In this document: piece after piece, positions 1-17,477 of the stretch | Layout: each line of letters opens with the position of its first letter | Position numbering within the stretch: position 1 is the stretch's first letter | Source of the DNA: Zeimonas sediminis | Lineage (GTDB): Bacteria > Pseudomonadota > Gammaproteobacteria > Burkholderiales > Burkholderiaceae_E | Reading direction: 5' to 3' | Length of the DNA stretch: 64,000 nt | Assembly: GCF_023721795.1 (NCBI RefSeq) | Contig: NZ_JAMQYE010000001.1 | Span: forward strand, 1,364,001-1,428,000 | The notes under the pieces: model-generated | What the model was told of the DNA's origin: nothing | What the model saw: the letters and a program-made list of their open reading frames with translations, nothing else | Database searches by the model: none | Made by a program: the position numbers and the translations under genes

Positions 1-1127
1 TGTTCAAGGTCAAGCCGGGCGACTTCTACGCGCCCATCGTCGACAAGGACGGCAACGTCATCGATCCGCAGGCGGACCAGGATCCGACCCTGAACGCCTA
101 CCGGATGATCGGCAAGCTGAACAACCACACCGGCAAGCGGCTGGCCGGGTTCAAGATCGAGCTCGGCTTCAACATCGGCGGCAACTTCGTGAAGTCGACC
201 AGCGGCGACGGCGTGAAGATCCGCCTGTACGAGGAGATCGCCGACCCGATCGCCAATCCGCCGACGCCGCTCGGCACCAAGGACATCGCCGAATTCCCCG
301 GCGGGCTGTTCTACGGCCCGGCCGACGACAAGCACTACTGGGGCTTCTTCAGCAGCACGCGCGCCTATTTCGAGGTCGACACCTCGACGCTCACCAGCGA
401 CGAGGACATGCTGACCAGCGGCATGCTGTCGAAGAACTACACCGACAACTTCGGTCAGTGGCTGCCGATCAACTGGGTGCCGCCGGGCTGGCTCTACGAC
501 GCCGACGGCAACCCGGGGACCGACGACGATGTCGTTGCATGGTTCAACGGCACGAACTGGATCACCTACGACGTCGACCCTGTGACCGGCGACCGGACCG
601 AGCGGATCGTCGACGCCGCCACGATCGCGATGTACGAGTCCACGCCGACAACGGTGTGGCTCGACGATGGCGACGTCAACACGGCCGGCGGCACGTTGTA
701 CGCCACCTGGGACGCGGAGAGCTCGGTCTACACGCTGGCCGCTGGCGGCACGGCAACGAACGACGAGATCGCTGCGCAACTCGTTGCGAACCCGCTGCTG
801 GAGCGTCGCGCCGGCTACCAGAGCGGCCCGATCGAGGATCTGGCGAACCTCAACCTGAACTACTACATCGAGGTCAAGGATCCGACCCTTTGGACCACCT
901 ACGACGCCAACACGGGTGAAGGGACGTTCACGCTTCGGATCACGCCGATCGAGGCCGCGGACAACACGCCGCCGGCCTGGCTGCCCGCCGAGGAGACGCC
1001 GGTCACCACCTCCGGCGACGGTGGCTGCACGATGGCCTCCGGCAAGGCGCCCTTCGACCCGACGCTGCCGCTGCTGCTGGCGGGCGGCATCGCGGCGATC
1101 GCGCTGCGCCGTCGCGCGTCGCGCTGA
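1..1127 (+). CDS. Secreted protein with Cys-containing C-terminal sorting tail (5' end outside window)
   Basis: Partial gene: the reading frame is open from base 3 and has no start in the window. The 374 visible residues are acidic and rich in Gly, Asp, Asn, Trp and Tyr with no internal membrane helix, as expected of an exported protein. The C-terminus carries a tripartite sorting signal: a GGCTMASGKAPFDP motif, a hydrophobic stretch of about 16 residues, and a final RRRASR. The same tail ends the protein at 14150..16381. It fits the NCBI JDVT-CTERM class, and the body may belong to the 'choice-of-anchor F' family; the latter is recall, not a search result. Function is unknown. A strong terminator follows within 35 bp, so it is the last gene of its transcript. 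Confidence 0.7.
   Translation, partial: FKVKPGDFYAPIVDKDGNVIDPQADQDPTLNAYRMIGKLNNHTGKRLAGFKIELGFNIGGNFVKSTSGDGVKIRLYEEIADPIANPPTPLGTKDIAEFPGGLFYGPADDKHYWGFFSSTRAYFEVDTSTLTSDEDMLTSGMLSKNYTDNFGQWLPINWVPPGWLYDADGNPGTDDDVVAWFNGTNWITYDVDPVTGDRTERIVDAATIAMYESTPTTVWLDDGDVNTAGGTLYATWDAESSVYTLAAGGTATNDEIAAQLVANPLLERRAGYQSGPIEDLANLNLNYYIEVKDPTLWTTYDANTGEGTFTLRITPIEAADNTPPAWLPAEETPVTTSGDGGCTMASGKAPFDPTLPLLLAGGIAAIALRRRASR
1020..1124 (+). other. JDVT-CTERM-like sorting tail, copy 1
   Basis: Gly-Gly-Cys followed by TMASGKAPFDPTL, then a hydrophobic segment and an Arg cluster at the extreme C-terminus. The invariant Cys suggests cleavage near it and perhaps lipid attachment, as proposed for related Cys-type CTERM signals. 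Copy 2 lies at 14153..14260 on the minus strand, next to the protease gene at 13481..14005. Confidence 0.7.
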
Positions 1128-11938: not shown

Positions 11939-13480
<1,542 letters not shown>

Positions 13481-13507
<27 letters not shown>

Positions 13508-14005
13508 CGCAGCGACGCCGAAGCCGGCGTTGTAGACCGCGTGCATCGCGACGGCCGGCCAGACGCTGCCGAAGCGCTCGCGAAGATGGCCGAAGACCAG
13601 CGAGGGCGCGACGACCGCCAGCGCCCACGCCGGAGGCTGCGCCAGCAGGTGCATCGCCGCGAAGGCAGCGGTCGTCAGCAGGTTCGCGACCGACACCGGG
13701 CCGACGCGACGCGCGGCCGACAAGCGCAGCAACTGCCCCTGCAGCAGGCCCCGGAAGACCAGTTCCTCGAGCAGCGGCTGCCAGGCCACGAACGCGAGCC
13801 ACTCGAGCAGGCCGGCCGGTCGGTGGAGCGGCCCGGCCAGGCCCAGCCCCAGCAAGAGCCAGACCGGCAGGGCCACGACGATCGCCGCGACGAATTGAGC
13901 GTCGGCAAGCGGCAGCACGAAGCGCGCGAGGCCGCTCTCTGCGAGCAACGGTGCTCGCCCGTGAGGCGGCGGGGCCGAGGGCGGGGGGTCGGGAGAGGGC
14001 GGCAC
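13481..14005 (-). CDS. mrtJ: CPBP-family glutamic intramembrane protease, likely JDVT-CTERM system MrtJ
   Basis: 174 residues from GTG at 14005. Mostly hydrophobic with about five membrane segments. All CPBP/Abi catalytic motifs are present: EELVFRG (E80, E81, R85), FAAMH (H119) and HAVYN (H155, N159). Small CPBP proteases of this kind partner with CTERM-type sorting tails; the adjacent gene at 14150..16381 and the gene at the left edge end in matching GGCTM tails, which makes this the likely processing enzyme. The symbol is inferred from context and from memory of the family. A terminator lies between it and the upstream tailed-protein gene, so it may be expressed separately or by readthrough. 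Confidence 0.7.
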
Positions 14006-14023
14006 GAGCTGGATCGTCGCACG

Positions 14024-14055
14024 AAAAAAGGCGCCGCCCGTTTCCGGACGGCGCC
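14024..14055 (-). terminator. Rho-independent terminator between tailed-protein gene and protease gene
   Basis: On the minus strand a GGCGCCG / CGGCGCC stem (14049-14055 with 14030-14036; extendable inward with a mismatch) is followed by six T (14029-14024). It lies 95 bp after the stop of the large secreted-protein gene and 19 bp before the protease GTG. Confidence 0.8.
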
Positions 14056-14149
14056 TGCGCGGAGGCCGTGATCTTCGTTCGAAGCGAGCGCCTGCCTCAT
14101 GGCGCCCGCTTCGCCGCTACCGGCCGCGCGCGGCGGCCGGCGCAACCGA

Positions 14150-16381
14150 TCAGCCCTGCCGGCGCACGCGCCGCAGCGCGATACCGCCGAGGCCCAGCGC
14201 CGCGAGCAGCAGCAGGCTCGGATCGAACGGCGCCTTGCCGGTGGACATCGTGCAGCCGCCGTCGGCCGGGGGCACGACCGGATCCGGCACCGTGATCAGG
14301 TCCCCGCTCGCGTACTCCGCGGCGGTGGTCTTGGCGACCAGATCGGCCTGGTTCCAGACCCCGTAGAAGCGCGTGCCGTCCGGCCGTGTGACGACCTGCG
14401 ATTCGTAGGCCGCCTCGTCGTCCTGGAACAGCGAGCCCATCGCCGTCGAATAGCGGACCGGCTGGTTGAAGTTCGCGCCGGCGTCGGTGCTCACCGTGAT
14501 CCACACGCCGAGGTCTTCCGGGTCGGCCGTGTTGGTCTGGGTGCCCCAGGCCAGATACACGATCGACGTGTTCTGGCAAAGCGTCGCGTCGGTCGTGGTC
14601 GGGTCCGCCGGGTCGCCGCTCGGGCACGCGGTGACGCTGCTCTTGGGTGTCCCGAAGATCCGGGGCTCACGGACGTTGATCGCGGTGTCGGAGATGTTCG
14701 TGACGTTGCGCGGGCTCTCCCAGCCGACCCCCAGCGTGTACTTGCGCAGCCAGAAGTTGTAGTTGTCCTGCTGCACGGCGAGCTTGGCCAGATCGGACGC
14801 ATACATGTAGCCGAGCCACAGCTCGCCGCCCCGCAACACGCCACGGTGAGCGAGTGCATTCTCGGCATTGTTCGCCTCCGTGTCCTCGAGCAGGTTAGCC
14901 TCGGTCGCGGTCGGCGTGCTGCCACTGACGTTCTCGGCGCGCTGGCTGGCGAGCAGGGCGACGCTGGCGAAGTCGGAGGTTGCGCAGTTCGGATCGACCG
15001 TCGGCACCATGTTGGCCGGCTGCACCCCGTCGATGCCGCGACGCAGGACGATGTCGGCCGCCCCGCCCTTGTTGGCCACACCCTCGCGCCAGAAGACGGC
15101 AAGCTGGATCCCGCCCGCACCCGCATCGGTCGGACCCTGCGTCAGGAAGCGAACCCTTCGCGCGTTGCGCGCCGGGTCGCTGAGCACGCAGCCGGGCGTG
15201 CCGATCTCTTGAGGTGCGCCGCCGACGTCGATCGTCGTCTTCTCCGGCTTGCTGTAGGGAAACGCGTGGAAGCGGACGAGCTTGCCCTTCACCGAACTGT
15301 CCGACGCGCCCTTGCCTTCCTCGTAGCCGATGATCGCCGTGGAGCCGACCAGGCCGTTGTTCGGGCGCGATGCGCCGACGACGCCGGTCTCGATCAGCGA
15401 AGGATCGACCAGCGCGCCCGTCGCGTCGACCACCTCGGTCTCGGCCTCCATCGAACTGCTGGGCCCGTACTGCCCCTGCCAGTTGTCCGTGACACGGATC
15501 GGGGACGCGAACGTGAGCGGCGTGCCGGCAACCGTCAGATCGACTGGCGCGAACGTGTACCAGACGTCGGTTCCGCCGTTCACGTTGGCGCCCGAGGCGC
15601 CGTCGCCCGGCCCGTCGCCCTCGCCCAGCAGGAGCCCGTGAGGGTCCTCCTGCCAGGTGACCACGACCTGGCCCTTGCGGGTCTCCGTGTTGAAGCCACC
15701 CCCGCTGGAATCCTGGATCGCGTCGCGAATCCCGGTATTCATCTGCAGCGGCTGGCTCCACTTCCCGCCGTTGTTCGTGGAGTAGGAGAGCCAGACGCAC
15801 GAGAACGGGATGACCCGGTTGTCGCGGGTCAGGTACCGCACGGCGCGCTGCACCGGCGTGTCGTCGACGTCCCGCGTCGAGATGTCGCCATCGGGGCAAT
15901 ACTTGCTGACCCAGGTCAGCACCATGACCGGGCCGCTGGTCTTGATGTTCGGCTTGTCGATGTCGCCCGGGTATGCCATCAGCCCCGGCTCGAGCGTGCC
16001 CCGCCATTCCGTCGAGATGCTGGACTTCAGCGCCGAGTTCGAGATGTTCACCGCCGCCGACCAGTCGGCGACGTTGTCGCAGGTCTTGTCGGCCGAGGGC
16101 TTGCAGGTCCTGACGAAGATGTCGCGCGCCACGCGCTCGACCTGCGCCTTCACGTCGTAGACGAGGCCCGCTCCTTCCGGAGAGTCGCCGTAGGCGACCA
16201 CGAGCGTGCCGTCACCGGTCCGCTGGATCTTCGGCTTGTCGCCGTTGCCGCCCGAACTCAGGGCAATCGGAGTGCCGACCGTGATCTGCGTCGCGGCGTA
16301 TGCCAACCCGGCCACCGCGGCCAAGCCGGCGAGCACCGTCCATTTTCTCGTGATCACCGACCTCTTCAAGCCAGCCTCCAT
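14150..16381 (-). CDS. Large secreted protein with JDVT-CTERM-like tail
   Basis: 743 residues from ATG at 16381, chosen because an AAGGAA ribosome site lies just upstream and a signal peptide follows at once (about residues 7-29, KRSVITRKW then a hydrophobic core ending AYA). The body has repeated short beta motifs of sialidase/BNR-like style (WLSYSTNNGGKWSQP; WITVSTDAGANFNQP) and several Cys pairs, so a beta-propeller-like fold is plausible. It ends GGCTMSTGKAPFDP, a hydrophobic stretch and RRVRRQG. It may belong to one of NCBI's 'choice-of-anchor' families. Function unknown; probably surface-exposed and anchored by the neighbouring protease. Confidence 0.75.
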   Translation of the reverse strand: MEAGLKRSVITRKWTVLAGLAAVAGLAYAATQITVGTPIALSSGGNGDKPKIQRTGDGTLVVAYGDSPEGAGLVYDVKAQVERVARDIFVRTCKPSADKTCDNVADWSAAVNISNSALKSSISTEWRGTLEPGLMAYPGDIDKPNIKTSGPVMVLTWVSKYCPDGDISTRDVDDTPVQRAVRYLTRDNRVIPFSCVWLSYSTNNGGKWSQPLQMNTGIRDAIQDSSGGGFNTETRKGQVVVTWQEDPHGLLLGEGDGPGDGASGANVNGGTDVWYTFAPVDLTVAGTPLTFASPIRVTDNWQGQYGPSSSMEAETEVVDATGALVDPSLIETGVVGASRPNNGLVGSTAIIGYEEGKGASDSSVKGKLVRFHAFPYSKPEKTTIDVGGAPQEIGTPGCVLSDPARNARRVRFLTQGPTDAGAGGIQLAVFWREGVANKGGAADIVLRRGIDGVQPANMVPTVDPNCATSDFASVALLASQRAENVSGSTPTATEANLLEDTEANNAENALAHRGVLRGGELWLGYMYASDLAKLAVQQDNYNFWLRKYTLGVGWESPRNVTNISDTAINVREPRIFGTPKSSVTACPSGDPADPTTTDATLCQNTSIVYLAWGTQTNTADPEDLGVWITVSTDAGANFNQPVRYSTAMGSLFQDDEAAYESQVVTRPDGTRFYGVWNQADLVAKTTAAEYASGDLITVPDPVVPPADGGCTMSTGKAPFDPSLLLLAALGLGGIALRRVRRQG
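14153..14260 (-). other. JDVT-CTERM-like sorting tail, copy 2
   Basis: GGCTMSTGKAPFDPSL, then about 15 hydrophobic residues and RRVRRQG. It matches copy 1 (1020-1124) in GGCTM, GKAPFDP, the spacing of the hydrophobic stretch and the Arg end, although the two protein bodies are unrelated by eye. Confidence 0.7.
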
Positions 16382-16631
16382 CCATTTCCTTTGCGACCCC
16401 GCGCCGGCGCGCACCAACGGAACGCCTGCGCGACACGTAAGGATCGGGCCCTTTCTTCGTGACCGCTCCTCCTCTGCTGGCATTAGGGATCGGCCTGAAT
16501 CCCCGGAGATTGGCCGAAGTCAAGAAGCCCGAAGATTTCCCGCGCGAAGATCTCCAAACGATGACATTTGTTAAGAGCCGCATGGCTCGAGCATCGAAAC
16601 CCCGGGCTCCTGAGCCAGGCTTGCGGCGAAG

Positions 16632-17477
16632 ATGCCGGATTCCGCTGATATCGGAGTGTCGAACTTGACCGAAGCGAGCCGAACCGCGGTCTGCTCATGG
16701 CCCCTCCAGCACCCGCTTGCCGACACCCTGCTCGCGCGCGGCGCGGTGCCGGGCTGCGAGCCGATCCAGGTGCCGGGCGGCATACAAACGAATGCCACCG
16801 GTCGCCACCCGTTCTGCCTGATGTGCGACGTCGTCGATCACCCCGACGACGCGCCCGAGCCGGGCGAGCCCGGAGCGCGACCGGGCGCGGTACGCATCCC
16901 GCTGCTGGCCGGCGCGCGCCTGTTCGAGGCAGGCACCCTGGGCAAGGCGATCTACGTCGTGCAGAGCGGCATCGTGAAGGAGACGATCCCCTGCCCCGAC
17001 GACTCGGTGTGCATCGTGCGGCTGGTGTCGCGCGGCGGCGTGGTCGGCCTGTCGGCATTGCTGGGCCAACCGCACGGCCACTCGGCCTACGTGATGCATC
17101 CGGGCACCGCCTGCCGGATTCCGGTGGCCCTGGTCGACGAACTCAGGGAGGAGGATCCGCGCGTCACCGATCGCCTGTTCCACGACTGGCACCAGGCCGT
17201 CGTCGATGCCGACCGAATCCTCGGCGAATTCGGCAAGGGGACGGCGCGCGCGCGGCTCGCGCGGCTGCTGCTGTTCCTGCGCAGCCGCCTGCAGCCCGGC
17301 GAGCCGCTGTGGCTGCGGCGCACCGACGTGGCCGCGCTGCTGGCGATCACGCCGGTCAGCGTGGCGCGGCTGCTCGCCGAGTTCAAGCGCGAGGGCCTGC
17401 TCGACGAGGAAAAGCGGCGCTGCGTCGGCATCGACGAAGCGCGCCTGCGAGAGATCGCGCGCAACAGCCGGGGCTGA
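16632..17477 (+). CDS. Crp/Fnr-family transcriptional regulator
   Basis: 281 residues from ATG at 16632. An N-terminal extension of about 75 residues with Cys (HPFCLMCDV) precedes a cyclic-nucleotide-binding-type beta roll (LFEAGTLGKAIYVVQSGIVKE; GGVVGLSALLGQPHGHSAYV) and a Crp-type helix-turn-helix (RRTDVAALLAITPVSVARLLAEFKR region). Ligand unknown; the Cys-rich N-terminus would suit redox or metal sensing, but the four-Cys FNR pattern is not evident. It is divergent from the large tailed-protein gene across about 250 bp, so it could regulate that gene. Confidence 0.82.
   Translation: MPDSADIGVSNLTEASRTAVCSWPLQHPLADTLLARGAVPGCEPIQVPGGIQTNATGRHPFCLMCDVVDHPDDAPEPGEPGARPGAVRIPLLAGARLFEAGTLGKAIYVVQSGIVKETIPCPDDSVCIVRLVSRGGVVGLSALLGQPHGHSAYVMHPGTACRIPVALVDELREEDPRVTDRLFHDWHQAVVDADRILGEFGKGTARARLARLLLFLRSRLQPGEPLWLRRTDVAALLAITPVSVARLLAEFKREGLLDEEKRRCVGIDEARLREIARNSRG

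Follow-up and report, generated by a model that had tools for sequence, protein, structure and literature searches.

A probable MrtJ/JDVT-CTERM sorting locus with two clients in Zeimonas sediminis, and mrtJ within type II secretion operons of related bacteria

Does a small intramembrane protease that lies beside a secreted protein with a cysteine-bearing C-terminal tail form a dedicated sorting system with that protein, and by which route would the trimmed protein leave the cell? The question is raised by a locus in a 64,000-nucleotide stretch of the genome of Zeimonas sediminis (assembly GCF_023721795.1, contig NZ_JAMQYE010000001.1, positions 1,364,001 to 1,428,000), here called the window, in which the protease gene mrtJ adjoins the gene of a choice-of-anchor O protein that carries a JDVT-CTERM tail at its C-terminus. 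The locus belongs to a known, bioinformatically defined kind, here with two clients. We consider it likely that the window represents an MrtJ/JDVT-CTERM sorting system in which one protease serves the choice-of-anchor O protein and a choice-of-anchor F protein, and in which both clients would be trimmed and exported to the cell surface by the type II secretion system (T2SS). As judged from sequence, the protease family, the conserved catalytic residues, the tail family, the co-occurrence of tail and protease, a secretin gene in the genome and the embedding of mrtJ among gsp genes in relatives point in this direction; the topology, lipidation and cut site of the two clients, their T2SS export and their surface location are what we infer. 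What opens the mechanism to testing is the link to gsp operons, which was seen outside the window.

Protease and predicted clients in the window

The first-pass annotation of positions 13481-16381 had described a CPBP protease of MrtJ type with all catalytic motifs beside a large signal-peptide protein with a Cys tail, a hydrophobic stretch and an Arg cluster, and had proposed a search with the JDVT-CTERM and MrtJ models. These coordinates fit the protease and substrate genes (Table 1), and both models were matched over their curated cut-offs, which bears out the description of either gene. The protease scored 114.3 bits (E 3.2e-33) with the MrtJ model NF033192, where the cut-off is 75, and 66.4 bits with the Rce1-like Pfam family PF02517, and a profile search of the whole genome returned it as the only MrtJ match. 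Of the 59 MrtJ sequences aligned, 58, including the window protein, have all of the residues E80, E81, R85, H119, H155 and N159, the sole deviating sequence being a damaged second copy (L074 3801-4346); the catalytic role of these residues is carried over from the Rce1/MrtX family as treated in the available text of PMC11980579. An AlphaFold2 model, for which 31 relatives were used, predicts a helical protein (mean predicted local distance difference test (pLDDT) score 92.5) with the catalytic residues in helices H66-95, H106-122 and H149-173.

The neighbouring choice-of-anchor O protein scored 475.9 bits with NF040591 (cut-off 125). Its reading frame is open over 14150-16483(-), and the ATG at 16381 given by the first-pass annotation was adopted; by inspection, this start suits a signal peptide ending AYA, a region that appears as a low-confidence helix (residues 4-26) in the predicted structure. 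The tail reads GGCTMSTGKAPFDP, followed by a hydrophobic stretch and by RRVRRQG, and it matched the JDVT-CTERM model NF033191 with 39.6 bits as protein (E 3.5e-10, cut-off 27) and with 43.3 bits in the genome search. The predicted structure is mostly beta (mean pLDDT 77.4). No match of the sequence to the PDB was found at E 0.01, and among the 50 Foldseek matches listed for the model (E 1.7e-8 to 7.8e-5) the best were sialidases. The superpositions were poor, and because of low TM-scores (0.15-0.53) and high root-mean-square deviations (mostly >10) the claim for this model is limited to a propeller-like beta fold, with no enzyme activity claimed.

The second predicted client, a choice-of-anchor F protein (233.3 bits with NF033657, cut-off 50), is encoded about 12 kb from the protease gene and ends, with its stop at 1127, in the tail GGCTMASGKAPFDP. 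The two tails are identical at 22 of 31 positions. A genome-wide count of tails and protease, also proposed in the first-pass annotation, gave two JDVT-CTERM tails over cut-off, both within the window, and one MrtJ in an assembly of three contigs that is 99% complete. Since the genome holds just these two tail matches and one MrtJ match, chance is no explanation. No choice-of-anchor F client was found among 60 relatives.

Table 1. Positions in the window of the features of the sorting locus and its surroundings
Feature	Position	Strand	Details
mrtJ, 174-aa glutamic intramembrane protease (CPBP/Rce1 family)	13481..14005	-	GTG start; NF033192, PF02517
EExxxR catalytic motif, residues 80-85 (E80, E81, R85)	13751..13768	-	conserved across MrtJ set
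Further catalytic residues of mrtJ	H119 13649-13651; H155 13541-13543; N159 13529-13531	-	
Terminator-like hairpin in the gap between substrate gene and mrtJ	14029..14056	-	12-pair stem with T-run
Choice-of-anchor O protein, predicted MrtJ substrate	14150..16381	-	743 aa from ATG 16381; NF040591
JDVT-CTERM tail of O protein	14162..14260	-	GGC motif (Cys 14252-14254), hydrophobic helix, Arg cluster
Probable N-terminal signal peptide MEAGLKRSVITRKWTVLAGLAAVAGLAYA	16295..16381	-	translation inspected by eye, ends AYA
3' part of choice-of-anchor F gene, second predicted MrtJ substrate	1..1127	+	starts left of window (L001:28-1608)
Second JDVT-CTERM tail of genome	1020..1118	+	46.5 bits in genome search; 41 bits as protein
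Crp/Fnr-type regulator, divergent from substrate gene	16632..17477	+	PF00027, PF13545

Tails, proteases and type II secretion genes across genomes

Tail and protease keep company well beyond the window. Among 399 genomes of the order, in each of which at most 12 and at most 18 candidates were scored and matches may therefore be missed, 13 carried both tail and MrtJ, two MrtJ only (G049, G271), two a tail only (G121, G461) and 382 neither; MrtJ over cut-off and tails were each present in 15 genomes (Fisher p 1.3e-20, not corrected for relatedness). Tails just under cut-off in G229, G231, G271, G382 and G431 were left out of the counts, the one in G231 adjoining an MrtJ of 74.5 bits, as were the weak CPBP matches L090-L093. 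An overlapping draw of 61 genomes, made up of the genome of the window (G000) and 60 relatives, had MrtJ over cut-off in five and tails in four, with both in G000, G015 and G051, a tail only in G005 and MrtJ only in G008 and G049. Via MrtJ loci of named records, 46 in all and each within an E-value threshold that roughly corresponds to the 75-bit cut-off, 45 genomes were reached, and 37 of these genomes had a tail over cut-off. The co-occurrence may be partly circular, if the MrtJ model was built from such neighbourhoods.

When 34 proteins that bear such tails were scanned at E 0.001, JDVT-CTERM was found in 33, choice-of-anchor O in 13, Q in seven, F in six and subtilisin-type models in five. 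Choice-of-anchor O itself occurs in three of the 399 genomes, all three of which have MrtJ, and the gene ends with a JDVT tail each time. Every one of 46 distinct tails has the Cys, a count that is not independent given that they were gathered with a Cys-favouring profile, and Gly precedes it in 42.

In relatives, the gene between gspF and gspG can be mrtJ, as is the case in seven of 56 MrtJ genomes: L058 (Sulfuricella sp. T08), L059, L070, L076 and L086 (both Thiobacillus, the latter Thiobacillus denitrificans UBA4768) among the named records, and G318 and G108 in the order sample. The 56 comprise the 45 reached via named records and 11 more from the order sample, namely G000 and a further 10 over cut-off; flanks of up to about 8-10 kb were searched, and in several cases mrtJ is near a contig end. 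Within the order sample the share is five of 15 MrtJ genomes. The ATG of mrtJ and the stop codon of gspF overlap by one base (TGATG or TAATG) in L058, L059, L076, L130 (G318) and L133 (G108), and in L086 the first in-frame ATG comes four bases further on. At L070/L038 a tail gene and mrtJ sit together in the gspF-gspG gap, and at L086 two tail genes are found ahead of gspD. G057, with no MrtJ over cut-off, has gspF running directly into gspG.

The seven genomes occupy three separate positions on the MrtJ tree, from which MrtJ-like frames of less than 70 bits in our own profile (including L140, the second copy in G339, and L144 from G121) had been dropped, as had the damaged L074 3801-4346. At least two changes are required by the starred branches, a count that does not tell whether mrtJ was inserted repeatedly or was inserted early and later lost on many occasions. 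A rough estimate is that a random gene would land in one given gap about once in 3000 cases, which places seven of 56 well outside chance even when the number of events is taken as no more than two or three. The gspF-mrtJ-gspG arrangement thus links MrtJ to type II secretion at the genetic level and suggests that trimming and export are coupled. No mention of mrtJ in gsp operons was found in the titles and abstract openings of the literature on JDVT-CTERM, myxosortase, MrtJ, and CPBP or intramembrane proteases together with type II secretion, a body of text that does not cover the founding MrtJ paper. Such operons, some with tail genes nearby, are compact natural units for the joint study of cutting and export, and a genome that combines a single protease with one or two clients offers a simple test case. 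Cultured strains with one tail, one mrtJ and a T2SS include Thiomicrorhabdus chilensis DSM 12352 (L066), in which the tail gene adjoins mrtJ and GspD scores 540 bits, and Keguizhuia sedimenti R-40 (L080).

Outside the Proteobacteria, Nitrospira sp. RSF11 (L075) has a divergent tail gene and mrtJ next to gspE, gspF and gspG homologues, which may instead be type IV pilus paralogues.

Proposed mechanism and competing explanations

The sequence of events that we propose begins with a client made with an N-terminal signal peptide, by which it would cross the inner membrane. The C-terminal helix would then hold it there, so oriented that the Arg cluster would be cytoplasmic and the GGC motif would lie on the periplasmic side of the membrane. 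The tail Cys would probably be lipidated by a host enzyme, MrtJ would subsequently cut at or just after the Cys and thereby release the helix, and the trimmed clients would be exported by the T2SS to the cell surface. More tentatively, and with a probability well short of even, MrtJ could be an auxiliary component of the type II secretion apparatus that acts at the inner-membrane platform by GspF, where removal of the helix would free a C-terminally lipidated client into the channel; the genome of the window would then have the same coupling with its genes unlinked.

Several observations weigh against a sorting system with T2SS export, and three of them would favour an alternative in which MrtJ does cut the tail and the clients remain as periplasmic inner- or outer-membrane lipoproteins or are released, the gsp location reflecting shared regulation only. 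First, the GspD gene of the window genome (647 bits, G000:C1:830821-832707) lies about 545 kb from mrtJ, which was not found among the gsp genes of that genome, and because of this distance the operon link holds for the window genome only via its relatives. Second, in 49 of the 56 MrtJ genomes mrtJ is not seen between gspF and gspG, some contigs being too short. Third, 11 of the 45 MrtJ genomes gave no GspD match over cut-off, though many are metagenome-assembled genomes of unstated completeness. A T2SS is common anyway: GspD is present in 34 of the 45 and in 41 of the 61 in the relatives draw, frequencies too high to inform, and genome-wide T2SS presence as a statistical link to MrtJ was dropped. 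Further, no lipidating enzyme was identified, and the MrtJ model had no Foldseek match in the PDB at E 0.001 or better (chain A of SagB-SpdC, rank 3 with E 2.0, was not counted), just as its sequence had none at E 0.01. Eight of the 45 MrtJ genomes have no tail over cut-off, including Sulfuricella sp. T08 with its mrtJ inside the operon, and G031 has a borderline tail (24.2 bits; 27.8 as protein) and no MrtJ. Finally, tails without MrtJ over cut-off occur in G005, G461 and G121. The first of these is a real exception, the genome being 97% complete with neither an MrtJ nor an Mrt_core match, while in G121 the gene next to the tail is MrtJ-like and scores 57.4 bits, under cut-off. Genomes with tails and no protease had been named in the first-pass annotation as the finding that would speak against the pairing; they do exist but are rare, and the co-occurrence is otherwise strong.

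The alternative without T2SS export is nevertheless improbable in our judgement, as the same gspF-gspG junction recurs at three positions on the MrtJ tree, start and stop codons overlap in five genomes, and MYXO-CTERM proteins depend on T2SS according to the available text of PMC11980579. Less probable still is that the tails serve as nothing more than C-terminal membrane anchors and that the nearby CPBP protein does other work, such as bacteriocin immunity or general membrane protein turnover. The tails without MrtJ in G005 and G461 would fit this, and in some genomes the tail may accordingly be an anchor alone or be cut by another protease, but the pattern of 13/2/2/382 genomes speaks against it, as does the conservation of the Cys (46/46, under a profile that favours it) and of the preceding Gly (42/46), neither of which a plain anchor would need. 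Scarcely credible is a MYXO-CTERM or GlyGly-CTERM variant processed by an MrtX-type enzyme or rhombosortase. The weak MYXO-CTERM score of the O-protein tail (TIGR03901; 15.6 bits) would fit it, but this score is under the cut-off of 20, the protease reaches 38.8 bits with the MrtX model NF040593 (cut-off 180) but 114 with MrtJ, and no Mrt_core match over cut-off was found in the genome, in which rhombosortase was not searched for.

Related systems and arrangement of the locus

Like other MrtJ/JDVT-CTERM systems (NF033192, NF033191), the window locus combines matches over cut-off to both models with a small stand-alone CPBP protease beside a tail protein. It differs in that the genome has two clients, compared with the single one described in the available text of PMC11980579, with the second about 12 kb off and a terminator-like hairpin between client and protease; the position of mrtJ within gsp operons of some relatives is not mentioned in that text either, where the words 'operon' and 'GspF' do not occur. 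Two or three tails lie within reach at 10 of the 46 MrtJ loci (L050, L051, L054, L063, L064, L069, L074, L082, L086, L089), which makes the picture of a single client too narrow.

The MrtX/MYXO-CTERM system of Myxococcus xanthus has a related protease core (the window protease reaches 63 bits with Mrt_core, under the cut-off of 100), the same tail plan and an invariant Cys. The MrtX model, however, has 238 positions against 98 for MrtJ, M. xanthus has 35 MYXO-CTERM proteins (PMC11980579, available text), and the window tail is under the MYXO-CTERM cut-off; membership of the window pair in this class was rejected, both scores falling short (15.6 against 20; 38.8 against 180). According to the same source, MrtX cleaves TraA in M. 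xanthus, conserved cysteines are required and cleavage also takes place in E. coli, and MYXO-CTERM proteins use the T2SS, their lipidation being a hypothesis. The first-pass statement that no experiment was known for this class agrees, as regards JDVT-CTERM/MrtJ, with the accessible literature, in which none was found, but the sister class MYXO-CTERM has one (PMC11980579). Tests of the cutting, lipidation and outer-membrane transport of Cys-tailed surface proteins were found for MYXO-CTERM only, and are partial.

Rhombosortase/GlyGly-CTERM, of Vibrio and Shewanella, likewise has a C-terminal tag with a Gly motif, a helix and a basic cluster, but its protease is of the rhomboid serine type. GlyGly-CTERM tails are not known to have an invariant Cys. 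A lone target also tends to adjoin the protease in that system, and the genomes generally have a T2SS, as far as the available text of PMC3237569 goes; according to that text there was no sign that rhombosortase marks a T2SS subclass, in contrast to the placement of mrtJ within the gsp operons of some lineages.

With regard to transcription, three terminator-like sites were found in 13300-16800 where 1.2 were expected, and no sigma-70-like promoter was found in the same region. Given the hairpin between them, the substrate gene and mrtJ need not share one transcript. Fifteen loci with a tail gene followed by mrtJ were listed, of which one was without values and five had gaps too short for a hairpin; similar hairpins were present in four of the nine further gaps scanned (L051, L066, L080, L089), or five of 10 with the window, across distant lineages. 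Such hairpins would fit the production of much client and little protease. The divergent Crp/Fnr-type regulator is a possible regulator of the locus.

Some minor observations concern loss, duplication and unusual placement of these genes. G007, of the same genus, has kept the flanking genes and a homologue of the Crp/Fnr-type regulator, while its sorting genes are lost: mrtJ is reduced to the C-terminal 44 residues at 89% identity (L033 5659-5817), and this remnant sits behind the start of another secreted protein, with no tail match. The tail protein of G005 (L032 4212-6668) is of the choice-of-anchor D type and also matches midcut-by-XrtH, and its gene is followed, by eye, by a TlpA-like frame; at L039 4736-5878 in G031 a JDVT-like tail lies mid-protein with a thioredoxin domain after it. 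These two arrangements possibly reflect a mid-protein cut or fusion. G339 (L139, L140) has two MrtJ genes over cut-off, of 101.9 and 78.9 bits, with tail genes near each.

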